Shown one piece after another: positions 11,204 to 28,555 of a DNA stretch of 46,139 nucleotides. The translations under genes were made by a program, and so were the position numbers. The stretch lies in NCBI GenBank assembly GCA_903922465.1, contig CAIXTV010000141.1, positions 1 to 46,139 of the forward strand, given 5' to 3'. The stretch is from an uncultured bacterium (GTDB lineage: Bacteria; Bacteroidota; Bacteroidia; Bacteroidales; CAIXTV01). The notes beneath the pieces are model-generated. The model had not been told where the DNA came from, ran no database searches, and saw only the letters and a program-made list of their open reading frames with translations. Position 1 is the first letter of the stretch; the number at the start of each line of letters is the position of its first letter.

Positions 11204-14200
11204 CTATTTGTTTATCACCATTTTTTTAGTCAAACGTTTGCCTTTATAATTTAATGAGTAATAATAAATACCTGATGCGAAATTTTGAATATTTACTGTA
11301 ATCTGGTTCGCTCCGCTTTGAGCATTAATTTCTTCAGTGTATATTTGCTGACCAAAAATATTGTTAATGCTAAACTTTACTTTGGACGCTGTTGGAAGGA
11401 AGTAATTGATAAAAGTGTTATCAAAAGCAGGATTGGGAATATTTTGACCAAGATTAAACCCGTAAGGGTTTACTTCATCAATTCCAACTAGATAGGCAAT
11501 AATGCTTTTGCAGGTTTTATCATTAGCAGTATCTACATCAAGTGGAAGAATAGTGCGTGCGCAGAGGTTGAACACCTGTTGTGTCGGAGCAAAAGTTGAT
11601 GTAAAGTTATAGTTGGCCTCAAGTCCAGGGGCAATAGAACCAGTGAAATTTTCAACTACAGGAGTAGTTGGAACACCACTGTTTATTAACCAATAAGTCA
11701 CTGGGAAGTTTGATATATTACTGTTGCCATAATTATGGATTTTTATTTTTGCTACCGCCTGAACGCCCATCCAAACTGTATCAGTGGAGGGGTTGAAAAC
11801 AATTTGGGTAACAGCAGCATCAAAAATCTGATTCCAGAGTTTTATATTGTCTAAATGAAAGTCATAATTATTTACATCTCCGACTGGACCATCCTGGGCC
11901 TTAATAGCAAGTTTCAACAATTGTCCACTATAAGCACTAAGTGATACACTAAAATGTTGAAGGTTTTTGGTTAAACCAGTACTTCGTGTCAATGCAAAAA
12001 TATTATTCCAGCTAGTACCACAATCCGTCGATATCAATACTTTTACCGAATCATCAGTGCCCATTGTATCCGCAAGATTTATATCTCCTGTTTCAGTAAC
12101 AGCAGCATCAAAATCGAGCATAGTTCTATTCGTAGCAAAGAATTTAGGACCAACTAACCACTCATTTCTCCCTGTTCCAAACAAATTAACCCGTGCTGTT
12201 ACATTTGTGGTAGAGCCAATACCGCTCTGATTTGTCCACGCAGAAGCCGCACCGGAAGGGGTATTTATACCGGCTCCTTCGCTCCAATGTGGGAATACGG
12301 TGCTTAGATTGTCACCTGTATAACCTGTGAAATTTATGGTGTCAGGTAAAATAGTGGTACCAACTGCTGTGAGTACACTTGAAATAAAATGGTCATTTGA
12401 AGCATCTCCATCGTTAGCCATAACAGTGTAGCAATTGAATATATAGCTTCCAGCTGTAGACATATTTGCTGTATTAGTGACTGTAACAGTCATCTCAGCT
12501 CCTACTGCAAGGGAATCAGTACTAATAACAAGAGGTCCCAATAAGGCAGGGTTTGCACCTTGCATGTTAGCATAAACAGAAACTGGATTTTGATTGAAAA
12601 GCAAGGTTTTGATACCGTAATTCTTTATTCTTACTTTAACAATTTCAATTGGACCAAAACAAGATGTAAATGTCGGATTTACAAGAGCAGTAGCTCCAAC
12701 ATCCCGAGCAGGTCTTCCTTTAAACGATTTACAGTTATTATCATTAAAAGTGTTGTTGTCTCCTGATAATGTAGTATAAGCGCATAAATTATTATTATAA
12801 CCGGGGAGGCAAGTAATGCTTGGGAAATTTACTTCCGCATCCGCTCCAGGAGCAAGATTTCCATTCCATATAACACTTCCAAGTGAAGTAGAATTAAATG
12901 AAGCTGTAACTTGAACACTCGTTAGGTTTGTTGTCCCGAAATTATGTAACTTAGCAATTACTGGCAACATATCTCCTTCATTATATATTGAATCGAAAGG
13001 TTGAGCAAAGCCAATGATGCCTGCATCTTTTGGGATAGGATTATAAATCATTACCGCATAATCTTCAGTTTCACCATAAGCATAAGTTCCGCATGGTTGA
13101 GTGTTTGTTTGATTGCCATCTTGCCTAGCAACAACTCTCATGCGGGTATAACCTACAAGTGCACCAGCAGGAATACTAACATTAGCATTGAGGGGATTAT
13201 TTAAAGTAAATTGGCCATTATATATTCTTTCAGTTCCGGTAGTGTCAAAAACACCATCCATGTTAAAATCAACAAATGCTTTCACCCAAACATTGGATGC
13301 GTTGGATGCATTGAAAATAATACTGGTAGAAAACGGAACAATAGAGCCCTTAGCAAGAAATACGGGTGGAAGTGATGTCGTAAAATCAGAATAGGTTTTA
13401 TTTGCATTAGCATTACCAAGCATTGCAGAAAAAGTTCCGTTGTTAATGTTGCTAATTGTTACATTGCCAATGTCTGCGTATAACGTAGATGTCGCTGCAG
13501 AAACGCAATAATTCGGGTGGTCGGCAATCTTAGATGCGGTATCATTACTCAAAATATTATCACATCCAAGAGCGGTAAATGCTAACAAGTGAAAAGTTTG
13601 ATATGCAGATAAGTCGGCAGTGGTGATAAAAGTGTAATTGGCAGAAGCCCCTGCTGCAATAGTTCCTGTGTATGTCTCAGAAATAGCAGGATTATTATCA
13701 ACCCTATACTTTAAGGGAATGCCGGTTTGAGCAGTAGTGCCATAGTTTTTCAATGTAACGGTAACTTGCTCGTTACTGCTAAGTGTTGCTGAAGATGAAG
13801 GATCTACAATTTGTGTAACACCTACATCACAGGAAGGTGGAGTGGCAACATTTACAACAACCGGAATACGAGGACTACTACATCCGGGCAATCCAAAATT
13901 GAATTTAATATTGGGACGGTAGTTTTGTGTTGCTCCCAAATTTAACGAACAACCTGCAGTTGAATCAGCAGCCTGTTGCCAGGTTTTCCCCGCTACTTGC
14001 GAAGAATAAATAGCAGAATTTACGGAAGAACTACTATTATCAAAGCAAAGATTTACCAGTATGTTACTTACCCCATCCCAATAAAAAGGATGTTGGAAAT
14101 TAATAGTTTGCCATCCAATATCAGGAACCGTATAGCTCCCTGAATAAACACTGGTGAAACCTGTGAGATCAAAACTGTAAAGACTAACGGAAGAAGTGTT

Positions 14201-17200
14201 TTTAATTCCTATATTCAGGTTATTGATGAATGCAGGAGAATTAGTTGAAAAATAAAATGAGAAAGCATTCATTAGCCCAACAGAACCTCCAGCTGATAGA
14301 ATTTCACTTGCAGTGAAAATCATTTGTGTTCTACCATCTTGTCTTGAAGTAGTGAATGGATAAATCGATGGCGTAGTTCCTGTTCCAACTGTTGCAGAAG
14401 AACTCAGATTATAACTAACTGCTTCGCCGTAATAAGTTGTAGTATTATATAATATAGGGCTAGTGAAATAGCTTCCCATGCCTGTGTTAGTGCCGCCTGT
14501 TGGGGTGTTATACCAATAAATAGTATCGTTTGAAATTGCATGTAAAGTTGCTGAAGTTGCATAAGGAATAGTTGTTCCACTAATAGTTGGAGAGGGAGGG
14601 ATATAGTAAAAGGTAAAGTTATTCTGGATGGTATCATTTAAATGAATGGTGTCACCTGCTAAAGTAATATAAGCAGTAATATGAATAATACTATCGATAT
14701 TAGTATTGTTAACTCCAGGATTAAATGGGGTTGTAAATGTAAATGTAATGGAATCGTTCGAGGCAAGAGTACCGGTTAATGGTTGTGTTATAGGAATACC
14801 ATTATTTATTCTGTAAGTAATATTACATCCCGATGTTATTGCACTTGTCCCATTATTACGAACTTTAACTTTTACTTGTTCGCTGTTATTAGTACAACCA
14901 CCTATTGGGGAAACAAATGACATTAATGCTGCTTCAATAGGAATTATGCGCAAACAAGCTTTAACTGGAGTCCTGTCAGATTCGCAACCATTAAAGTTGC
15001 CAACTTTCCAATTGTAAAAATAGAAATAATATTGGTTATTAGTAGAATAATTTGTACCTGTGATGGTTAACATTCCTGGAATGGTATAAGGAAAGGAAGC
15101 CCCAGAAGTATTACGGTACATTCCTGGATTGAGGAGATATGTAAATCCTAATTTATAGGAATTTCCTATGGGAACATTAAAATTAATGGGAACAGTTTCT
15201 TTAAGTCCAGGTGAAACGGTAGTAATACCTGCATAAGAAGCCTGAATTGATCCTGAGCTGTTAAATAGAGCAATTGTATAAGCTGTCCCAGGCATACCAG
15301 CAGGAAAGATATCAACACTTTTAATAGTTATTCCTAGTGGATTTAATACATTGAAATTAGTAAGCCAATATGTTGAAGTATTAGTAGAAGTAGTACCAAT
15401 GGTATTATCAGCTGGCCCAACATAAGACTCTGAGCCTGCAGCAGCACTTGCCCAATAGGTTGTTGTGTTAGTTAAATATGGGATGGTAAAAGTATTTCCT
15501 TGTCCTAATAATGTAGGTGAAGTTTGGGAAGCATACCAATAAATGGTACCTCCTGCAGATGAAGCAGTAAGGTTAGCTGGATGACCATATACTGTGGTGT
15601 CATTAACGCCAACTGGAACTAAAGGCTTAAATTTAGAAGTAATAGAATAATTACTTACTGTGTCGTTAACATGAATAGTGTCATTTTGCAGAGTCACCCA
15701 TGCTTTAAAATTAAATATTGAGTCTCCTCCAAGGTTAGGGATGTACATGTTAATAGGGGTGGAGAATGTATAAGTTATGGTATCAAGGCTAGCAATAGTA
15801 TTGGTGACATTCTCAGTAACAGGATTTGCATTATTAACTTTATATGTTGCTGTTAAACCCCCGCTAATGTTTGTTGCTCCGTAGTTTTTAATTTTAACTT
15901 TGACTTGCTCAGTTCCTAATCCGCAACTTTCTGAAGGAGAAACAATACTTACCATTTTGGCATCCTTATTAGAAAGTGTGACATTTACGGTAACAGGAAC
16001 CCTTGGACTTTGGCAACCACCTCCTGCATTACTGAACACTTGTATTTCTCTGAAATTAGGACTTGATCCTGCTATGTTATAAAATCTTAAACGTGTTGAA
16101 GTCACGGTAGGAAATGTTACACTGTCTGTAATAGCTGTACCAATATAACTATAAAAATTATTCCAAGCCACACCATTCCAATATTGAAATGTGCAACCAG
16201 TTGTTGGACGGTTATCTTTATAAAAAATAACTTTGTTGAACATCACAGGGTTGTTCCAATCAAACTCTATCCATCCATTTGTAGTTACCCATCCCCAAGG
16301 AAGATTTCCGTATGCTGGTAAAATCCCATCATTGTAGTTTTGAGGACCATAACTGCCAGTCCCTCCTCCTGATTGAGTAATATTTGCGGTTAAGGCAAAA
16401 TTACCAAATCCACCTCCCGCTGTAATAGCAGCAACATAATAAGTTGTCGTATTAAACATTATTGGTGTAGTATAAGAAGGACCGATATTAAAAGAACTAG
16501 TATCAGTTATGTTTTGGAACCATCGTACTGATTCTGTTGAGTTGGCGTAAAGTGTGGCAATTTGACCTGAAAGTATGCTGGATCCAGTTGTCACTGGTGA
16601 TGTCGGAACATGTGAGGATAATACCATTTTCATACATGAATCATTCCCGAAAACTGGGTCACCGGTAAGGCTAGTCCAACTCATTATATTGAATACTGAA
16701 TCATTGGTAGTAACACCAAGATTAAGGGGAGAATTAAAAGTAAAAATGATTGAATCGCCAGCAGCGATGGTACTTGTTACTGGTTGACTAACATTTATTA
16801 ATGTTCCTAAAACTTTATAATGAGCAACAAGGTTTCCATTTATTGCAAGAGAACCATAGTTTTTGATTTTTATTCTTACAGAATCTTGTGTCAAACCACA
16901 GCCAGTCGAGGGAGTTGTAATTGCAGAAACACCTGCGTCAAGGTTTGGAACAATACTAATATTGATATCATCAATATTAGTAGAATAATAGGAGGGAGCA
17001 CTGTGAATAAACCAGCCAAAATAATAGGTTCCGCTTGCTGCCGGCGAAAATGTAACACTGGATTTCATATAAAAAGTATTATTGAAATTGGCAAGTGTTG
17101 TTAAGGTTGTTGACATAGCTGAAGGAGTATTCGAATTTCCCATTTTTAAATCAAGGCTCTGTGGATAATTGGTGCTTGTTCCACGATACCAAAATTCAAC

Positions 17201-20200
17201 TTTATAATTCTCACCTGCAGTGAGGGTGAAGCATCTTGAAAACAACCAATCATTAGCTGTATTAGAATTACTGCCATAATACTGTGCACTATTAGTACCG
17301 GAATGGGCATAATACAAATAATTATAAGGAAATGTCCATGTTTTACCATCGCCATTTACATCCAGTTTTGTCCATGAAGCATTATCGTCATATACTTCAA
17401 AACCCATTGTATAAGGAGCAGAATATAAATTATACCCATTGAAGATTGTTGTATTCATCAAACTGTCATTTAATGCATACCCATCAAGATTCATGGAAAG
17501 GAAAGTGCTGAAATTATGGTTTCCAACTGCTGAAAAATTAGCTGGAACCGTAAAATAATGAGTATAAAAAGAATCTGGGGGGATAGCACTTGTGTTTTTA
17601 TTCATTACCCAAGTTCCATTGTCAAGTTTATAGAAAAGACGCAAAGAATCGATTGGGATAGTTAAAAATGATTGGTTCTTTACCTTAATAATTGGATATT
17701 CGGTTGCTGTAAGACTACATCCGCTTTGAGGAGCGACAATTTGAACTAGTGAAGCATCCCAGGGAACTGGAGTATATTCATCAGCTCCAATATCAGGAGT
17801 TACTGGATTTCTAGTGTTGCCATCAATATCATTCGTCACATCAGAAACAGGGATTCCTTTGGCATCTACTGCATTGATAAAAACATGAAGATTATCAAAG
17901 GAGGGATAGGAGGGGTTTACGGAAATTGAATTAGTATCAAGTCCAGTGACAGCTTTCCATGTTGCTAAATCAGTTCTGTCAGATCCCCAGAATCCAATTT
18001 TAGATCCTGTTGTAAATAGATTATTATAATTAGCTAAAAGTCCGGTGCCAGGGGAAACGTAAAACGCATACCCACCTCCATTATTTACTATATTATTATT
18101 TCTAATATTTATACTACTAATTCCATTATTCACTAAAACAGACCTGCTCAGGGAAGGATTCGTACAAGTAATATTAAAACTGTTATAAAATATATTGTGA
18201 TAACTAGAATAGCCTATGCTTAATCCAGTAGCAGAATTTCCCGAACCTCCACTAATACTAACGAAATTATTAGCTATTAATCCTTCCTGTCCCAAGGTAG
18301 CATAACAAGATTGCAAATAAATTCCGATACCTCCGTTAGGAGAAGAAATCGATATTTTATTTTGGAGAATTTTGAGTTTATTCTGACAATTATAAGAATA
18401 TAGTCCATAGAACCCACTATACAAAGTGGTGGTATTTATTGTATTGCCTGTAACTTCTGGGGCATTCTGATAAATTAAATACATGCCCTGATAATACATG
18501 TCAGTGAAAACATTATTGATGATTCTTGTGCCAGATTCAAGATTGCTAGCATTGCCCCCTCCCCAGTAAATCCCGACAGACCCATTTATAAACTGGTTGT
18601 TCATTATCCAGTTATTTGAATCAATAGAAGTGGTTCCATTTATTGAATATATGTGAGCAATATTTGTTGAAGCATTATTTGTAACTGGAGCCAAAAAGAT
18701 ATTATCAATTATCCTATTATTGGAAGATCCACCTGATATATCAATATTTTTGGCATAGGATATTCCTTTGTTATAAATGGTTATTTTTTTTATTGTAACA
18801 TAATCAGCTCCGACAAATTTAATAATGTAATTGTCGGCAGTCGAAGTAGAAGAATCTGTAAGTACAACACTTGTATTATCACCATTCGCAGATTGGAAAG
18901 TAATTGTGTTGGTTGGAGAAGAACCGGAAATGGGAGGTAAAATAATTCTTTCGTTATAGGTACCTGCATTTACATTAAATATTGTAGGACCCATTATCCC
19001 GCAATTGTTGAGTGCATTAACGGCTGAAGAAAAATCAGGGTAATCTGCACCAACTCCTCCAATTGTATAGCTCCCATTAAATAAAGAACTACATGCGTAA
19101 AAAGAAATTGTTGCTGTGTCATTTAGGTTATTCATGTCAGACAGATTATTTGGTAATTCAGTCCAAACCTTCAAAGTATGTTGTCCTGGTTGGAAACTTG
19201 GATTATCAATTGCAAATTGAGGTAAGTAAATGTCCTGAAGTAGATTTCCATTCCATGCAATTGGAGACGAAGCAATTCCTCCATCAATAGCATATCGAAT
19301 TTTTACAGAATTAAGAGGAGTTGTGCCAAAATTACGTAGAATAACTTTAATGTCCATCGCTAGATTAGCTAAAACCATAGATGTGGGCGATGTTATTTGT
19401 GAGATCCCCGCATCGATATTATAATTTGAAGGAGTAAATCCAAGTTTAATATTTGATCTGTTTGCATTTAGATATAAATTTATACTATTTGGTGGGTTAT
19501 TGTCATCATAATAATATAAATGATTGTTAGAGCCAGAGATATTGTAATAGAAATTTGCATAGGGAGCCAAACCAGTTCCCCCAAGGTTTGTTTCTGTAAG
19601 AATTAAAAGATTGTCAGAAGTATAATTAAATTGATTTTGGAAAATAATTTTTCTCCATCCTGTATCAGGAAAGTTTACCGTTCCGTCAAATACAAGAGTA
19701 GCACTACTAATTATGTTATTCCAGTTATCAGTTAATAATGAAGTAGCATTTATGCTTTTTAAATAAATTTTTATCGGTAAATCAACAGATGAAACAGTTG
19801 CTACCCTCCATTGCAAAGCTTTAATTAGTCCAAATTTATTAATTTCACTTTGAAACAACAATTGTCCATCTCTTTTATATCCATAATTTGATGATGTTGG
19901 GAAGTATGTATTCCCTGTATAGATATCAATAACGCTTACTTCTACATCGGGTTGTTTGATGAGGAAGGATTTTTGAACAGTGGTATTAGTATTGCCTACC
20001 GCATCTTTTGCCCATACATAGTAGGTTATATTAGTTCCATAAGGATAAGAAGGAATGGGTGCATTGTAAAGACTTCCCACGTGAGTCATTGCAATTGAAT
20101 CCCAATTACCCAGCCCTAGTTTGTAGAATACCTTAGCGCTTGCAATGCCTGAGGCATCAGTAATGGTAGCATTAATATTAAAAGGTCCTGTAGAAAACAC

Positions 20201-20869
20201 TGAATCTTGCAATATCGGAGAATTCAAACTAATTGATGGAGGAATATTTTCAACTACTGCAACAGAAATCTTAACATCATCAATCAGCCAGCCATAAGCC
20301 CCACTTGAACCTAATGTGCCTCCATCTGTCAATCGAAAGCGTAAAGCGACATTGTTGGTGTCTTTTGCAACTGAGGAAATGTCGAAAACTTCTTTTTTCC
20401 ACCAATTACTCGCCGGCAATAAACTATTGTTTGTGAAATCCCATTCACTATAGGATCTAGAGTCAAAACGATCATTATAAATCCCAAATACTGAAGAACC
20501 GCCCAAATACATAGTATTGGTAAGTTTAGTCCAGTTCCCCCCATTAATCGAAATTTCAATTTCAGCTCTATCCATATAGTCAATTTTGGCTATATGTACA
20601 AATTCAAGCAACACAAATTGTTTCCCATCAGTATTAAAAGTATCCGATAGTAAAAACATTGTATTCGCTCCTGAGATAACAGCACATGAATCAGCTTTTA
20701 AGCCCGAATAATGATAATTAGAAGTGGCTTTCCAATGCGGTACACCTCCAGTTAAAGATGATGTGAACTTATAGGGAAGCGTCTCAAAACCCTCGCTTAT
20801 TAGGGTTGTTTGCGATTTAAGAGTCCCTGATAAAATGAGTAAGCTTACAAAAAAAAGTATTCTTTTCAT
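11204..20869 (-). CDS. Giant secreted modular protein with T9SS type A sorting domain
   Basis: A 3221-residue protein with a signal peptide (about 1-19, ending LKSQ). In order it has a MAM/jelly-roll-like domain (about 20-205), an Ig-like segment beginning PPSISL (about 210-310), a CARDB-like domain, and a beta-helix block (about 600-1030, opened by SYTIGGVGADYPDF and closed by the DIDG...GADEY signature). Another MAM-like domain follows. Then come three tandem super-modules (about 1310-1630, 1638-1965, 1978-2340), each a CARDB domain, an Ig-like domain and a variable domain closed by GC-x-S/E-x-R-x-PV. The first contains a discoidin-like domain nearly identical to that of the downstream giant protein. 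A GEVED domain (about 2515-2615) and more CARDB and MAM-like domains come next. The C-terminal 90 residues (GQNIPNPAFDNT ... KKMVINK) form a T9SS type A sorting signal. The expected role is a surface-anchored or secreted adhesin; the ligand is unknown. Confidence 0.92.
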   Translation of the reverse strand: MKRILFFVSLLILSGTLKSQTTLISEGFETLPYKFTSSLTGGVPHWKATSNYHYSGLKADSCAVISGANTMFLLSDTFNTDGKQFVLLEFVHIAKIDYMDRAEIEISINGGNWTKLTNTMYLGGSSVFGIYNDRFDSRSYSEWDFTNNSLLPASNWWKKEVFDISSVAKDTNNVALRFRLTDGGTLGSSGAYGWLIDDVKISVAVVENIPPSISLNSPILQDSVFSTGPFNINATITDASGIASAKVFYKLGLGNWDSIAMTHVGSLYNAPIPSYPYGTNITYYVWAKDAVGNTNTTVQKSFLIKQPDVEVSVIDIYTGNTYFPTSSNYGYKRDGQLLFQSEINKFGLIKALQWRVATVSSVDLPIKIYLKSINATSLLTDNWNNIISSATLVFDGTVNFPDTGWRKIIFQNQFNYTSDNLLILTETNLGGTGLAPYANFYYNISGSNNHLYYYDDNNPPNSINLYLNANRSNIKLGFTPSNYNIDAGISQITSPTSMVLANLAMDIKVILRNFGTTPLNSVKIRYAIDGGIASSPIAWNGNLLQDIYLPQFAIDNPSFQPGQHTLKVWTELPNNLSDMNNLNDTATISFYACSSLFNGSYTIGGVGADYPDFSSAVNALNNCGIMGPTIFNVNAGTYNERIILPPISGSSPTNTITFQSANGDNTSVVLTDSSTSTADNYIIKFVGADYVTIKKITIYNKGISYAKNIDISGGSSNNRIIDNIFLAPVTNNASTNIAHIYSINGTTSIDSNNWIMNNQFINGSVGIYWGGGNASNLESGTRIINNVFTDMYYQGMYLIYQNAPEVTGNTINTTTLYSGFYGLYSYNCQNKLKILQNKISISSPNGGIGIYLQSCYATLGQEGLIANNFVSISGGSGNSATGLSIGYSSYHNIFYNSFNITCTNPSLSRSVLVNNGISSINIRNNNIVNNGGGYAFYVSPGTGLLANYNNLFTTGSKIGFWGSDRTDLATWKAVTGLDTNSISVNPSYPSFDNLHVFINAVDAKGIPVSDVTNDIDGNTRNPVTPDIGADEYTPVPWDASLVQIVAPQSGCSLTATEYPIIKVKNQSFLTIPIDSLRLFYKLDNGTWVMNKNTSAIPPDSFYTHYFTVPANFSAVGNHNFSTFLSMNLDGYALNDSLMNTTIFNGYNLYSAPYTMGFEVYDDNASWTKLDVNGDGKTWTFPYNYLYYAHSGTNSAQYYGSNSNTANDWLFSRCFTLTAGENYKVEFWYRGTSTNYPQSLDLKMGNSNTPSAMSTTLTTLANFNNTFYMKSSVTFSPAASGTYYFGWFIHSAPSYYSTNIDDINISIVPNLDAGVSAITTPSTGCGLTQDSVRIKIKNYGSLAINGNLVAHYKVLGTLINVSQPVTSTIAAGDSIIFTFNSPLNLGVTTNDSVFNIMSWTSLTGDPVFGNDSCMKMVLSSHVPTSPVTTGSSILSGQIATLYANSTESVRWFQNITDTSSFNIGPSYTTPIMFNTTTYYVAAITAGGGFGNFALTANITQSGGGTGSYGPQNYNDGILPAYGNLPWGWVTTNGWIEFDWNNPVMFNKVIFYKDNRPTTGCTFQYWNGVAWNNFYSYIGTAITDSVTFPTVTSTRLRFYNIAGSSPNFREIQVFSNAGGGCQSPRVPVTVNVTLSNKDAKMVSIVSPSESCGLGTEQVKVKIKNYGATNISGGLTATYKVNNANPVTENVTNTIASLDTITYTFSTPINMYIPNLGGDSIFNFKAWVTLQNDTIHVNDTVSNYSITSKFKPLVPVGVNDTTVYGHPANLTASSAGGTIYWYASQTSPTLLGQGNTFTIPYLTNTTTYWASAAAGSESYVGPADNTIGTTSTNTSTYWLTNFNVLNPLGITIKSVDIFPAGMPGTAYTIALFNSSGSIQASYAGITTVSPGLKETVPINFNVPIGNSYKLGFTYLLNPGMYRNTSGASFPYTIPGMLTITGTNYSTNNQYYFYFYNWKVGNFNGCESDRTPVKACLRIIPIEAALMSFVSPIGGCTNNSEQVKVKVRNNGTSAITSGCNITYRINNGIPITQPLTGTLASNDSITFTFTTPFNPGVNNTNIDSIIHITAYITLAGDTIHLNDTIQNNFTFYYIPPSPTISGTTIPYATSATLHAISNDTIYWYNTPTGGTNTGMGSYFTSPILYNTTTYYGEAVSYNLSSSATVGTGTTPSIYPFTTSRQDGRTQMIFTASEILSAGGSVGLMNAFSFYFSTNSPAFINNLNIGIKNTSSVSLYSFDLTGFTSVYSGSYTVPDIGWQTINFQHPFYWDGVSNILVNLCFDNSSSSVNSAIYSSQVAGKTWQQAADSTAGCSLNLGATQNYRPNIKFNFGLPGCSSPRIPVVVNVATPPSCDVGVTQIVDPSSSATLSSNEQVTVTLKNYGTTAQTGIPLKYRVDNNPAISETYTGTIAAGASANYTFITTADLSAYQTFHLLAFTALGCDNILSNDTASKIADHPNYCVSAATSTLYADIGNVTISNINNGTFSAMLGNANANKTYSDFTTSLPPVFLAKGSIVPFSTSIIFNASNASNVWVKAFVDFNMDGVFDTTGTERIYNGQFTLNNPLNANVSIPAGALVGYTRMRVVARQDGNQTNTQPCGTYAYGETEDYAVMIYNPIPKDAGIIGFAQPFDSIYNEGDMLPVIAKLHNFGTTNLTSVQVTASFNSTSLGSVIWNGNLAPGADAEVNFPSITCLPGYNNNLCAYTTLSGDNNTFNDNNCKSFKGRPARDVGATALVNPTFTSCFGPIEIVKVRIKNYGIKTLLFNQNPVSVYANMQGANPALLGPLVISTDSLAVGAEMTVTVTNTANMSTAGSYIFNCYTVMANDGDASNDHFISSVLTAVGTTILPDTINFTGYTGDNLSTVFPHWSEGAGINTPSGAASAWTNQSGIGSTTNVTARVNLFGTGRNEWLVGPKFFATNRTMLDFDAAVTETGDINLADTMGTDDSVKVLISTDCGTSWNNIFALTRSTGLTKNLQHFSVSLSAYSGQLLKLAIKAQDGPVGDVNNYDFHLDNIKLWNQIFDAAVTQIVFNPSTDTVWMGVQAVAKIKIHNYGNSNISNFPVTYWLINSGVPTTPVVENFTGSIAPGLEANYNFTSTFAPTQQVFNLCARTILPLDVDTANDKTCKSIIAYLVGIDEVNPYGFNLGQNIPNPAFDNTFINYFLPTASKVKFSINNIFGQQIYTEEINAQSGANQITVNIQNFASGIYYYSLNYKGKRLTKKMVINK

Positions 20870-20910
20870 GAAATTAATGATTTGGAAATGTTGTCTGGAG
20901 ATATTGGGCG

Positions 20911-20918
20911 CAAAAATA
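20911..20918 (-). promoter_or_regulatory. -7 box of the 3221-residue protein gene
   Basis: On the minus strand TATTTTTG is an exact match to the Bacteroidota -7 element TAnnTTTG, about 42 nt before the start codon and followed by GCGCCC. The -33 region is a T-rich tract without a clear TTTG. Confidence 0.6.
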
Positions 20919-20947
20919 CCAAATTAAATTTGAAAAAAAAAATCATA

Positions 20948-20963
20948 TGTGATAAAAATCACA
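20948..20963. promoter_or_regulatory. CRP/FNR-type operator-like palindrome
   Basis: TGTGATAAAAATCACA is a perfect palindrome arm for arm (TGTGAT / ATCACA) and matches the classical CRP consensus TGTGA-N6-TCACA exactly. It lies about 30 bp upstream of the -7 box of the giant gene, next to where the -33 box would sit. That is a plausible position for an activator touching RNA polymerase. The identity of the regulator is inferred only from the site. Confidence 0.55.
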
Positions 20964-21319
20964 AGCGATGTTTTATTTTGAGTGTTTGTAGAAAACATTT
21001 GTCGAAATCATTAATGGTTGTAAAGCTATAAACCAATGAAATATAATGCTTTTCTGAAAAATATTTGTTTCCATCTGTCTAAAATGCATCTTCATAAAAC
21101 TAAAAAAAATATAAAACACAACAAGCAAAATAAAATCACTTAGATTTAAAAGTAGCAATAAATATTTCGAAAATACAATTAGAAATAATCCTATTAAGTA
21201 AAATTAAAATTAATATCCTTTCTAAGCAGAAAACTCCAAGTATGAGTTCCCTTTGCAATTCTCCTCTAAGCACCTGATAATTTGCAAAAAAAAATCCTTT
21301 CTCCATTCACAACATAAAA

Positions 21320-21382
21320 ACTAACCCTTAAAACCTAACACTTAACCCTTAAAACCTAACACTTAAAACTTAACCCTTAACC
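21320..21382. repeat. 7-bp tandem array, 9 units (degenerate)
   Basis: Nine consecutive heptamers of the types CTTAAAA, CCTAACA and CTTAACC run without a phase break. The array follows a degenerate copy of the 107-bp repeat flank (about 21258-21312, sharing CACCTGATAA-tTTGCAA and CCATTCACAAC). It is the same family as the larger array at 22628-22816. Confidence 0.85.
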
Positions 21383-21452
21383 CTTTATGGGATACTGCCT
21401 GTTATTTATTATTACGTGTGCAAATCGTTTTCAGAAACGTTACGAATATTTT

Positions 21453-21570
21453 GCAGAAGCATACAATTCTCCTCCTGATTCGTACTCTTTTTCTCGCGAT
21501 GCGTACGTTTTTTTTCGCGGTGCATAAAAATCTGTTCGCGATTCATACGTTTTTTTTCGCGAATTTCATA
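21453..21570. repeat. 21-bp-period array with CGCG phase marks
   Basis: CGCG occurs at 21495, 21516, 21537 and 21558, exactly 21 bp apart. The intervening sequences are related (ATGCGTACG-T8 and ATTCATACG-T8 are the closest pair). The pattern extends two degenerate units upstream (CCTG at 21474 and CAGAAGC at 21453). It is CpG-rich against an AT-rich background. No open frame with a start codon uses it convincingly. Confidence 0.8.
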
Positions 21571-21639
21571 TTTTCAGAGTATGTATAGGGTATACATGGG
21601 AGTATAAAATAAATTGTGTAAACAGGTTTTAAAGCAAAA

Positions 21640-21685
21640 ATGTCTTGTGCCGAAATGGAGCATAGCGAAATGAGGCACAAGACAT
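21640..21685. repeat. Long inverted repeat (12-bp perfect stem)
   Basis: ATGTCTTGTGCC (21640-21651) pairs perfectly with GGCACAAGACAT (21674-21685) across a 22-nt loop that contains CGAAATG-like direct repeats. A-rich and T-rich tracts lie on the two sides, so it could act as a terminator in either direction. No adjacent gene needs one, and it lies inside the repeat region. Confidence 0.7.
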
Positions 21686-21702
21686 GTTTTGAAAATTATT
21701 AT

Positions 21703-21809
21703 TAAGTTTAAAATGCCAGTTGAAAGAGTGTTTTGCTATTCCCCTCAAAAAACCTGATAATATGCAAGAAAAATCCTCTCCACATTCACAACTTAACACT
21801 TAACACTTA
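21703..21809. repeat. 107-bp direct repeat, copy 1
   Basis: This segment is identical to 22540-22646 (offset 837 bp). It begins TAAGTTTAAAATGCCAG and ends at the entry to a 7-bp array (CACTTAACACTTA). The perfect identity of an apparently non-coding stretch suggests recent duplication or gene conversion. Confidence 0.9.
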
Positions 21810-21815
21810 AAACTT
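21791..21815. repeat. Short 7-bp array, about 3 units
   Basis: ACTTAAC, ACTTAAC and ACTTAAA follow copy 1 of the 107-bp repeat. It appears to be a small member of the same array family that reaches 27 units after copy 2. Confidence 0.75.
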
Positions 21816-21838
21816 GTCAATGCCTGAAATAGGTTGAC

Positions 21839-21862
21839 CGTTAATATGTGCAATTATTAACG
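21839..21862. repeat. Hairpin CGTTAATA / TATTAACG
   Basis: An 8-bp perfect inverted repeat with an 8-nt loop lies just before a GTGTAAACA word that also occurs at about 21616, upstream of the long hairpin. It marks a second, degenerate copy of a larger repeated block. Confidence 0.5.
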
Positions 21863-22031
21863 TGTAAACAAGAAAAAAACGCAAGACATAACCAGTTTAA
21901 AATGAGCGTTTCAGAAAGATGATAAGGAAGTTTAATCCCCTCCTGAAAATATCAATCCTCCTCAAAACCAAAATTCTTTTTCACATAAACAATTGATAAA
22001 ACTGCAGGTCCACTAAAGGGGTCTCAAAATT

Positions 22032-22492
22032 GTATTAACATCCTACACAATAGTATCACCATTTTACAACAAAGTATGACCATTTTACACAATAGTATGG
22101 GCATTTTATACCAAAGTATTTTCATCCTACACAATAGTATGGGCATTTTACAACAAAGTATTTTCATCCTACACAATAGTATGGGCATTTTACAACAAAG
22201 TATGACCATTTTACACACTAGTATGGGCGTTTTATACCAAAGTATTTTCATCCTACACAATAGTATGGCCATTTTACACCAAAGTATGACCATTTTACAC
22301 CAAAGTATGACCATATTACACAATAGTATGGGCATTTTATACTATAGTATGGGCATATTATGCAATAGTATGGGCATTTTACACCAAAGTATGACCATTT
22401 TATACAATAGTATGGGCATTTTACAAAATTACGCCACCATTTTAAGAGATAGTATTACCTTCCTACAAAATAGTATAAATAGTATAATTTGC
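22032..22492. repeat. 21-bp tandem array, about 22 units
   Basis: The word GTAT recurs every 21 bp from 22032 to 22473, missing only in the degenerate unit at 22431. The unit is roughly GTATG-RSC-ATTTTACA-MMAAW, with interleaved variants (GGC, GACC, TTTC after GTAT; ATTTTA or ATCCTA in the centre). Read on the plus strand it gives a heptapeptide pattern S-[MI]-x-I-L-x-[NQ], with open frame 22076-22594. The I and L codons vary only synonymously (ATT/ATC/ATA, TTA/CTA), which hints at past or present coding. There is no clear ribosome-binding site, the in-frame stop upstream is at 21986, and the frame runs on into the 107-bp repeat. I call it a repeat array with undecided coding status. Confidence 0.9.
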
Positions 22493-22539
22493 AAAATGCA
22501 AATAATGTATAAATCCCGCAAAATAGTATTTTTCTCAAC

Positions 22540-22646
22540 TAAGTTTAAAATGCCAGTTGAAAGAGTGTTTTGCTATTCCCCTCAAAAAACCTGATAATAT
22601 GCAAGAAAAATCCTCTCCACATTCACAACTTAACACTTAACACTTA
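22540..22646. repeat. 107-bp direct repeat, copy 2
   Basis: An exact copy of 21703-21809, joined on the left to the 21-bp array tail and on the right to the 27-unit 7-bp array. Confidence 0.9.
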
Positions 22647-22816
22647 CCACTTAAAACTTACCACTTAACACTTAAAACTTACCACTTAAAACTTACCACT
22701 TAAAACTTAAAACTTACCACTTAAAACTTAAAACTTACCACTTAAAACTTAAAACTTAAAACTTACCACTTAAAACTTACCACTTACCACTTACCACTTA
22801 AAACTTAAAACTTACC
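22628..22816. repeat. 7-bp tandem array, 27 units
   Basis: Exactly 27 heptamers run in one phase. All begin ACTTA and end in AA, AC or CC, giving three unit types in irregular order, mostly ACTTAAA and ACTTACC. The array ends about 90 bp before the start of the SDR gene and just before its promoter. Confidence 0.95.
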
Positions 22817-22837
22817 ACTCCCCACCCCCTTTTCTGC

Positions 22838-22867
22838 TTTGTAATTCAAAAAAGACTCGTATATTTG
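22838..22867 (+). promoter_or_regulatory. Promoter of the SDR oxidoreductase gene
   Basis: A TTTG -33 box (22838-22841) and a TATATTTG -7 box (22860-22867) are separated by 18 bp, close to the usual Bacteroidota spacing. The start codon is 40 nt downstream. The promoter lies directly after the 7-bp array. Confidence 0.65.
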
Positions 22868-22907
22868 AACACTCAATACAGCAATTTGTTACACTTACAA
22901 AAACACG

Positions 22908-23693
22908 ATGAATAAAATCGCATTAATCACAGGCGCATCAAGTGGCATTGGAAAAGAATTGGCGCATATTTTTGCAGCAAATCAAATCGACTTAATTCTT
23001 GTTGCCTGCAGCGAAGAAAAACTAATTATATTAGCCGATAAACTAAAACTACAATATAATATCGAAGCCCACTACAAGTTAGCCGACTTGTCCGACATAA
23101 AACAAGCCGAACAATTATATCGTGGACTTAAAGCTGAAAATATTAACATCGATTATCTTGTGAATAATGCGGGTTTTGGAAATTATGGCTTCTTCCCCGA
23201 AACCGATTGGAAAAAAGAACACCAAATGATCAATCTTAACATCACTGCCCTCACCTATTTCTCCAAAGTATTTTCAAAAGATATGATATCAAAAGGGCAG
23301 GGGCGCATCCTGAATATAGCATCAATGGCCGCGTTTCAACCCGGTCCCCTAATGTCAGTTTATTACGCAACCAAAGCTTATGTGTTATTTTTAAGCGAAG
23401 CACTTAACAACGAATTGAAAGGCACAGGTGTAACTTGCACCACTTTATGCCCAGGGCCAACCGACACAGGTTTTGTTGATGCTGCTAATCTGAACAATTC
23501 AAAACTATTTAGCAATAAAAATATTCCGGGAGCATACGAAGTGGCTTTATATGGCTATAAGGCTATGATGAAAGGCAAAGCCGTAGCAGTCCCAGGTTTC
23601 ATGAATCGACTAATGGTAATTAGTAGTTCAATGGCACCACGAAGCATAGCCCTGAAAATCGTCAGGAAAATGCAGGAAGAAAAGAAAAAATAA
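22908..23693 (+). CDS. SDR-family NAD(P)-dependent oxidoreductase
   Basis: A 261-residue classical short-chain dehydrogenase/reductase with a Rossmann fold. The cofactor motif TGASSGIG is at 8-15, the NNAG motif at 86-89, the structural Asn about 111, and the catalytic Ser about 139 with Tyr152-x3-Lys156 (YYATK). Its overall shape resembles the DltE/YdfG-like group that reduces small carbonyl substrates, but the substrate cannot be read from sequence. It has its own promoter after the repeat region and is separated by about 45 bp from the L,D-transpeptidase gene. Confidence 0.92.
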   Translation: MNKIALITGASSGIGKELAHIFAANQIDLILVACSEEKLIILADKLKLQYNIEAHYKLADLSDIKQAEQLYRGLKAENINIDYLVNNAGFGNYGFFPETDWKKEHQMINLNITALTYFSKVFSKDMISKGQGRILNIASMAAFQPGPLMSVYYATKAYVLFLSEALNNELKGTGVTCTTLCPGPTDTGFVDAANLNNSKLFSNKNIPGAYEVALYGYKAMMKGKAVAVPGFMNRLMVISSSMAPRSIALKIVRKMQEEKKK

Positions 23694-28048: not shown

Positions 28049-28555
28049 TTAGTATTTTATCTTATTCTCTTCAGCCACCCACAAATCGAATGGTTTATTA
28101 TGTTTTAAATGATTCAGCTGAAATGTCGGAATGCTTCTTTTTTCTAAAGGAAGTGAAAGCTCTTGGTAGATAAATGAATCATCAAATCCTGCTTGAGCAG
28201 CATCCAGATTGTTTGCAGCAAAATAAACAACTTTAGGGCGAGCCCAATAAATAGCGCCCAAACACATAGGGCAAGGCTCACATGAACTATATAAAATACA
28301 ATTGTCTAATTGGAAAGAATTTAGGGCCTTGCATGCATTTCTAATAGCAACGATTTCGGCATGCGCAGTGGGGTCCATTGTTTGGGTAACACTATTAGTA
28401 CCTTTTGCAATTATTTCCCCATCTTTAACTATGATAGCGGCAAAAGGGCCTCCTTTTCCTGAAGCAACGTTTTCTAATGCCATTTCAATGGCTATTTCAA
28501 TATAATAAGTATGACTTTTTTCCATATTCTGTTTTCTCGTTTCAAAATTAATCAT
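28049..28555 (-). CDS. guaD: Guanine deaminase
   Basis: A 168-residue member of the cytidine/deoxycytidylate deaminase fold, with zinc ligands His65 (HAEI, catalytic Glu67), Cys95 and Cys98 (CEPCPMC). The segment CLGAIYWARPK and the downstream AAQAGFDDSFIY closely resemble the Bacillus subtilis guanine deaminase rather than tRNA adenosine deaminase. The enzyme converts guanine to xanthine and ammonia in purine salvage. A second ATG at residue 11 (28525) would give a length nearer the family's; the true start is uncertain. It is convergent with the radical SAM gene, with no clear terminator in the 103-bp gap. Confidence 0.9.
   Translation of the reverse strand: MINFETRKQNMEKSHTYYIEIAIEMALENVASGKGGPFAAIIVKDGEIIAKGTNSVTQTMDPTAHAEIVAIRNACKALNSFQLDNCILYSSCEPCPMCLGAIYWARPKVVYFAANNLDAAQAGFDDSFIYQELSLPLEKRSIPTFQLNHLKHNKPFDLWVAEENKIKY

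Follow-up and report, generated by a model that had tools for sequence, protein, structure and literature searches.

Organization of the repeat-bearing gap

The stretch of DNA studied here (the window, 46,139 nucleotides (nt)) represents contig CAIXTV010000141.1 (C141) of the assembly GCA_903922465.1, a genome available in 312 contigs. Two divergent genes of this contig, encoding a protein of 3221 amino acids (aa) on the minus strand (11204-20869) and a short-chain dehydrogenase on the plus strand (22908-23693; PF00106, E-value 5.5e-45), are separated by a gap at positions 20870-22907, which carries tandem arrays of 21-base-pair (bp) and 7-bp units together with copies of a 107-bp block. The region 274-20869 is taken up by a pair of very long genes on the minus strand (3573 and 3221 aa), and the C-terminus of the 3221-aa protein presumably resembles a type IX secretion signal.

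The most extensive component of the gap is an array of about 20 units at 21-bp spacing (22025-22460; plus strand, as all features below unless stated otherwise), which belongs to a dispersed family, here termed family 1. Tandem Repeats Finder (TRF) reported 18.4 copies at 22044-22429 with an 84-bp higher order. The 3' end of the array passes into a conserved terminus consisting of a special unit and a tail (22401-22535); its extent to about 22535 was taken from a profile match, the window sequence itself being part of that profile. The terminus is followed by the second copy of the 107-bp block (22540-22652), recognized by its sequence identity to the first copy, and by a 7-bp array of 27 units (27.4 according to TRF; 22628-22819) with five invariant and two A/C positions on a G-free strand. 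On the other side of the large array, the first block copy and the first heptamers of the adjoining 7-bp array were located at 21703-21815, the match between the two copies being identical over 107 bp and continuing to 113 bp at 98%. A degenerate third copy (21252-21312; 66% block match with an E-value of 8.5e-4, extending over 21252-21351, and 83% over 42 bp) precedes a 7-bp array of nine units of the TAACACT type (21322-21385; TRF period 7, 9.1 copies). Between these parts lie a small 21-bp array with about four copies of minus-strand units like CGTATGAATCGCGAAAAAAAA (21473-21562, TRF), a dispersed 44-bp stretch (21595-21638), which was also found after the 21-bp element at contig C231 (86% match at G000:C231:257-300), and an inverted repeat with 16-nt arms that are 94% complementary and 22 nt apart (21636-21689).

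All repeat components that a sequence-only reading of this gap had described were recovered by TRF and repeat finding, including two identical block copies (21703-21809 and 22540-22646), a degenerate one near 21252-21351, and 21-bp arrays in front of both identical copies (21473-21562 and about 22025-22429, the latter followed by the conserved terminus). The 7-bp arrays behind the block copies had been counted as 9, about 3, and 27 units; the first and last counts stand, and the middle array comprises about four heptamers (21791-21815, exact match to ACTTAMMACTTAMMACTTAMMACTT).

The middle 7-bp array stops exactly at position 21815, a feature that the sequence-only reading had not mentioned and where an insertion sequence (IS) remnant begins (21815-21938; 84% identical to C83:27385-27509 and 81% to C1:13329-13451). 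Because the match in contig C83 extends into an open frame that encodes a transposase helix-turn-helix domain (PF01527, HTH_Tnp_1, E-value 1.1e-10), the remnant can be regarded as the left end of the IS, which we take to be of the IS3 type, judging from the Pfam domain and the TG end. Contig C83 terminates at 28371, and the right IS end was not found. In contig C1, the IS end is fused directly to the last unit and tail of family 1.

The recurring order of 21-bp array, linker, 107-bp block, and 7-bp array had been considered to indicate a repeat family. As regards the 21-bp arrays, membership of families was corroborated: the large array has seven other loci in this genome, and the small one falls into a sequence cluster with the array that opens contig C207 (G000:C207:1-324). 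The four-part order as a recurring unit, on the other hand, was not seen elsewhere in the sequences examined, and a search of the whole genome placed the 107-bp block at this locus only. When block and linker were used as the query, heptamer arrays elsewhere matched only the heptamer-like end of the block, and the flanks of ten heptamer arrays inspected elsewhere differed from it. Since the block is unique and its upstream copy is cut by the IS, the order of the parts is best explained by a local duplication of the block with its heptamers, followed by the IS cut, beside an independent 21-bp element; the gap would thus represent a patchwork of unrelated repeat classes.

The dispersed 21-bp element of family 1

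Searching the own genome with positions 22032-22492 revealed six further places with family 1 sequences, and a search with the tail added contigs C98 and C1. Contigs C231 and C271 both start inside arrays of TCTAGAG-type units and possibly derive from a single locus split in two; on this assumption, eight loci were counted, namely, C141 (the window), C92, C195, C216, C231/C271, C284, C98, and C1, the last of which has just one unit. The units diverge strongly between loci, while the terminus is common to all of them: a tail core of 61 columns is free of gap cells in all 28 pairs, with a mean pairwise identity of 0.74. The profile of the terminus was built from these eight loci and matches them by construction; it matched no other array family in the stretches examined. 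A resemblance between the end of the small array in the gap and the special unit of family 1 was dropped, as the profile search gave no support.

Outside the own genome, the core pattern of family 1 was found in 19 stretches of public genome contigs. One of them, G060:C120 (L101) from a public Bacteroidales bin, features five matches at 42-bp spacing; the other 18 contain one match each, which were taken for chance. The closest match of this bin to the window dehydrogenase is only 50% identical, and the gene beside the L101 array (GreA-like by eye) has a closest match of only 28% in the own genome, so that the element would reside in two distinct backgrounds, provided that the G060 bin, which may be mixed, is clean. 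Within the own genome and 59 genomes of the same order, the core pattern yielded two single matches outside the own genome, as did the reversed control. Viral contigs contained no match to the tail pattern and one match each to the array pattern in five contigs, and plasmids contained no match.

The C271 array has a palindromic leader, GGATAATTTGTAATTATCC, in front of it, and L101 carries a near copy of this leader ahead of its array. This sequence and near copies of it recur in the own genome and in G060 (L125:1501-1523, L127:362-384, L123:395-417, L130, L132, and L126), several times beside a second hairpin such as AAGCCGAATTGAAAATTCGGCTTT, as noticed by eye, and sometimes near 21-bp arrays; together, the two look like a two-hairpin repeat module. 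Furthermore, G060:C537:7325-7385 exhibits three matches to the GCAGATAATTTGCAAATTATATC part of the family 1 tail and, because of their 16-bp spacing, probably represents a 16-bp tandem repeat.

A function of the tail as structured RNA was considered and rejected. No Rfam match at an E-value of 0.1 was obtained for window positions 20600-23100, and the tail hairpin showed neither two-sided changes nor covariation among the family 1 tails. Folding z-scores ranged from -3.31 to +0.90 over five loci, only one of which folds well (-3.31).

Seven codons correspond to 21 bp, and family 1 could accordingly be, or have been, a small gene whose product is a peptide of heptad repeats (NSMGILH units), the other 21-bp arrays of the genome being similar genes. 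The tail is open in the array frame in seven of the eight loci, and its BLOSUM score of 0.65 in this frame exceeds those of the other five frames (-0.2 to -1.02; permutation p = 0.0425, uncorrected), which is a weak signal. The arrays of the window, C92, C98, C284, and C216 can likewise be read through in this frame. Nevertheless, TAG or TAA occurs in nearly every C231/C271 unit and TAA at C195, the first start codon of the frame in the window falls within the array (22076), and the codon-position entropy is inconspicuous (p = 0.22). Across the genome, a codon-period signal reached p < 0.05 in one of 30 arrays, open frames occurred in 31 of 35 arrays compared to 30.6 expected, and conservative codon changes (BLOSUM, p < 0.05) were detected in one of 35. 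Heptad coding was therefore rejected as a general cause by all three tests, and the peptide gene appears very unlikely, even though 9 out of 39 sampled arrays lie inside predicted genes.

Periods of 21 bases across the genome

The prevalence of the 21-bp period was determined with TRF in a first sample of 59 stretches, each taken from the start of a numbered contig and at most 20 kb long (in total 611,672 bp, or 580,684 bp without N; 121 arrays), and in a later replicate of 20 contigs (209,423 bp without N). Among long arrays (at least 63 bp), the period was a multiple of 21 (21n) in 39 out of 62 cases in the first sample and in 14 out of 19 in the replicate. In total, 53 of the 81 long arrays in the combined sample of 790,107 bp fall into this series, covering 1.3% of it: 22 have a period of 21, 11 of 42, 7 of 63, and 8 of 84, with rarer cases at 105 (one), 126 (three), and 231 (one). 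Each period outside the series was represented by at most two long arrays. Among the 74 shorter arrays, a period of 21 was also the most frequent of those compared (17, against 9 at 18, 8 at 24, 3 at 20, and 1 at 22). The coverage per kb at individual lags amounted to 6.70 at 21, 7.66 at 42, 0.37 at 20, and 0.18 at 22 in the first sample, and to 8.37 at 21, 1.35 at 20, and 0 at 22 in the replicate. The core pattern of the 21-bp units had 83 matches in the genome and its reversed control none. Extrapolation gives roughly 260 (arrays at contig ends omitted) to 340 period-21n arrays for the whole genome, values that are approximate, given that the sample consists of contig starts and that 12 of the 53 arrays touch contig ends.

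In 20 genomes of the same order, each represented by one contig start (265,515 bp in total), none of four long arrays had a period of 21n, and coverage at lags 21 and 42 was nil. In the G060 bin, 5 out of 17 arrays had such a period, mixed with periods of 7 and 14.

The arrays of the 21n series are degenerate, with a mean TRF match of 84%, and a comparison of neighbouring units in 30 arrays counted 808 transitions and 1338 transversions. The 39 arrays of the first sample comprise 9 in predicted genes, 16 in intergenic regions, and 14 at contig edges. The suggestion that 21 reflects three times 7 did not hold: in 65 arrays of period 21n (4 out of 69 arrays with a 7-bp subperiod had been set aside beforehand), identity at lag 7 was 26.1%, which lies inside the range for the other lags (25.2-31.5%), and the arrays are thus not triple heptamers.

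The 7-bp arrays of the gap are ordinary bacterial heptamer repeats. Their pattern, ACTTAMM, has 144 matches in the own genome, compared to none for the reversed control, and outside the window these occur at a minimum of 16 places. In ten arrays that were cut into units (22628-22819 of the window and nine others, which are not all heptamer loci, and whose exact search pattern is biased towards A/C at the variable places), 157 of 203 differences between adjacent units were of the A/C type, mostly at positions 1, 6, and 7, and no G occurred on this strand in 140 units. The unbiased samples contained 16 heptamer arrays of many sequences. Five of these are at most 200 bp away from a 21n array, compared to 1.32 expected for random intergenic placement (P = 0.0076); all five stem from two contigs only, and 15 of 124 other arrays are equally close. 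Contig C114 contains two pairs (L219:3628-3906 and 14424-14719), each made up of a heptamer array of the AACTCAT type and a 21-bp array whose units are of the GATTGCAA kind; the pairs are inverted relative to each other and lie about 11 kb apart. Among 395 genomes of the phylum, 14 including the own one matched the heptamer pattern, with 101 matches in the own genome and 16 in the next. The reversed control (ATTCAMM) matched about 55 of the 395 genomes; it is not neutral across the phylum, since it is probably a common heptamer itself, and this suggests that heptamer arrays of other sequence are widespread there.

Several repeat systems described previously share features with those of this genome. 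Heptamer repeats have been reported as GGGAATC in Xanthomonas and GGGGA(C/T)T in Nostoc (PMC4692102), as heptanucleotides in Calothrix (cited in PMC4692102), and as TAACTGA in Beggiatoaceae and five Bacteroidetes (PMC4679880). They resemble the arrays studied here in their intergenic location and in having few to tens of copies, and those of Xanthomonas also in a fixed core with degenerate positions. The heptamers studied here likewise combine degenerate units with a fixed core at many loci, whereas the motif, ACTTAMM, and the predominance of A/C variation differ. Slippage set by a DNA segment held by the polymerase has been suggested as the cause of bacterial heptamers (PMC4692102, citing earlier work).

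Family 1 is most reminiscent of BrickBuilt, a minisatellite inside a miniature inverted-repeat transposable element of Porphyromonas gingivalis with 19 elements, 23-nt units, and IS5-like terminal inverted repeats (PMC4596501). Both are intergenic, occur in many copies (19 elements there, 8 loci in family 1), and consist of degenerate tandem units of fixed length next to conserved non-repetitive flanks, represented in family 1 by the tail beside the array. They differ in the unit length, which in family 1 is 21 bp instead of 23 nt and which, in contrast to BrickBuilt, recurs in dozens of other arrays of different sequence. Archaeal Borg tandem repeats are also scattered genome-wide with virtually all unique sequences, being virtually absent from host genomes, and consist of perfect units of varied length, about half of them in genes (PMC9879509). 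The 53 arrays of this study are comparably scattered and fall into 44 sequence clusters; their units, by contrast, are degenerate, one length series dominates, and the proportion inside predicted genes is lower. Searches of an open-access library returned no title or opening of an abstract that refers to unrelated sequences arranged in arrays of a fixed 21-bp period, which is weak evidence of absence.

Possible origin of the 21-bp period

The explanation that we favour, albeit with modest confidence, is that the gap is a patchwork in which the 21-bp arrays represent mostly non-coding minisatellites, one family being BrickBuilt-like, and would grow by increments of exactly 21 bp under a sequence-independent ruler. 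It builds on the shared terminus, the dispersal, the excess of 21n periods, and the lack of a general coding signal, all of which were observed, whereas the mode of growth and the ruler are inferred. The large array would be a single member of a scattered and probably non-coding minisatellite element, made of a variable number of degenerate units and a fixed terminus of about 110 bp, and would at the same time belong to a genome-wide, mostly intergenic class of largely unrelated sequences with an exact period of 21 or a multiple of it. Slippage or unequal exchange may add whole units and, as the periods of 42, 63, and 84 suggest, also blocks of units. The step size would be dictated by a factor that gauges the length of DNA irrespective of its sequence, in the simplest case a span of two helical turns occupied by a DNA-binding protein or by a replication or recombination machine. 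Whether the lineage possesses such a ruler in the strict sense, that is, an enzyme or chromatin-like protein that makes or keeps non-coding DNA in exact 21-bp steps, is a more tentative proposal, to which we assign a considerably lower probability.

Several observations weigh against this explanation. The palindromic leader was seen at only two family 1 loci and, by eye, not before the arrays of the window, C195, and C92. The likeness to BrickBuilt concerns units and tail; neither terminal inverted repeats nor duplicated target sites were identified in family 1, for which no formal search for them was made. Fresh 21-bp duplications are rare: a test for isolated pairs found two at lag 21, both within TRF arrays, and three perfect short tandems of 2-2.5 copies were noted (L088:476, L082:794, and L211:18470), which implies that new arrays are seldom born or that short ones quickly grow or vanish. 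Indel rates did not differ between 21n arrays and other arrays (p = 0.5), so that an active keeping of the register is not demonstrated, and the 10.5-bp harmonic of A+T content, the sole bending test, was absent in 35 arrays. The sample from the relatives is small (four arrays) and includes a coverage of 1.30 per kb at lag 126. The sampling of contig starts and the arrays touching contig ends also belong here. Such arrays, together with the fragmentation of the assembly, could point to an assembly artefact, for instance, graph cycles at a k-mer of 21. To our knowledge, graph cycles do not yield degenerate units such as those observed, and family 1 is also present in another public bin, so that an artefact of this kind is extremely improbable.

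Complete independence of the arrays is opposed by the comparison of the 44 cluster consensuses. Their mean cross-similarity (10.10 of 21 positions) is slightly above that of shuffled sequences (10.01, standard deviation 0.04), and four pairs reach at least 15 of 21 positions, compared to 0.6 by shuffling (maximum of 3 in 30 rounds) and none in the reversed control. Some relatedness among the 21n arrays is therefore possible, and the period might have arisen with no ruler at all, if a single old 21-bp satellite spread through the genome and mutation and homogenisation then altered its units until the length alone survived, the window being an accident of slippage, duplication, and IS insertion. 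Such a history would accommodate the strongly differing units on one terminus in family 1, the higher-order periods, which are typical of satellites, and the order of parts in the gap, for which the IS and the local duplication account. It is rendered rather doubtful by the mean cross-similarity, which equals that of the reversed control (10.11), and by the family 1 terminus profile, which found no counterpart in other array families of the stretches examined.

Alternatively, the arrays could be selected protein-binding sites with a nucleoid, partition, or silencing function, in which selection maintains a spacing of two helical turns that lets proteins stack along the same face of the DNA, while the sequence drifts. 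The exact period in largely unrelated sequences and the lack of a general coding signal are compatible with this idea, as is the change of AATAGTA to AATAGCA in the units of C98 (L147:1242-1570) along with AGTA to AGCA at three tail sites (a fourth, AGTAT, being unchanged), as if all were read by one factor. In C1, however, the same tail change is present at one site only. Moreover, palindromes were not enriched overall in 24 consensus units (single ones reach p < 0.05), the bending signal is missing, and indels are no rarer than elsewhere. The orientation of 16 intergenic arrays relative to genes was also unbiased (9 tandem, 4 convergent, and 3 divergent; background 91, 23, and 28). Selected binding sites are accordingly judged to be an unlikely source of the period.

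Minisatellites of bacteria are usually regarded as products of accidental local slippage, with an arbitrary unit length. The finding that 53 of 81 long arrays share one period series, are mostly unrelated in sequence, and carry no general coding signal calls for a physical or enzymatic cause. If a length-measuring ruler exists, it would turn unrelated sequences into arrays of one period and would thus represent a bacterial counterpart of phased satellite DNA. A genome of this kind makes it possible to test what determines the unit length of tandem repeats, through comparisons among sister species and a search for the protein involved.

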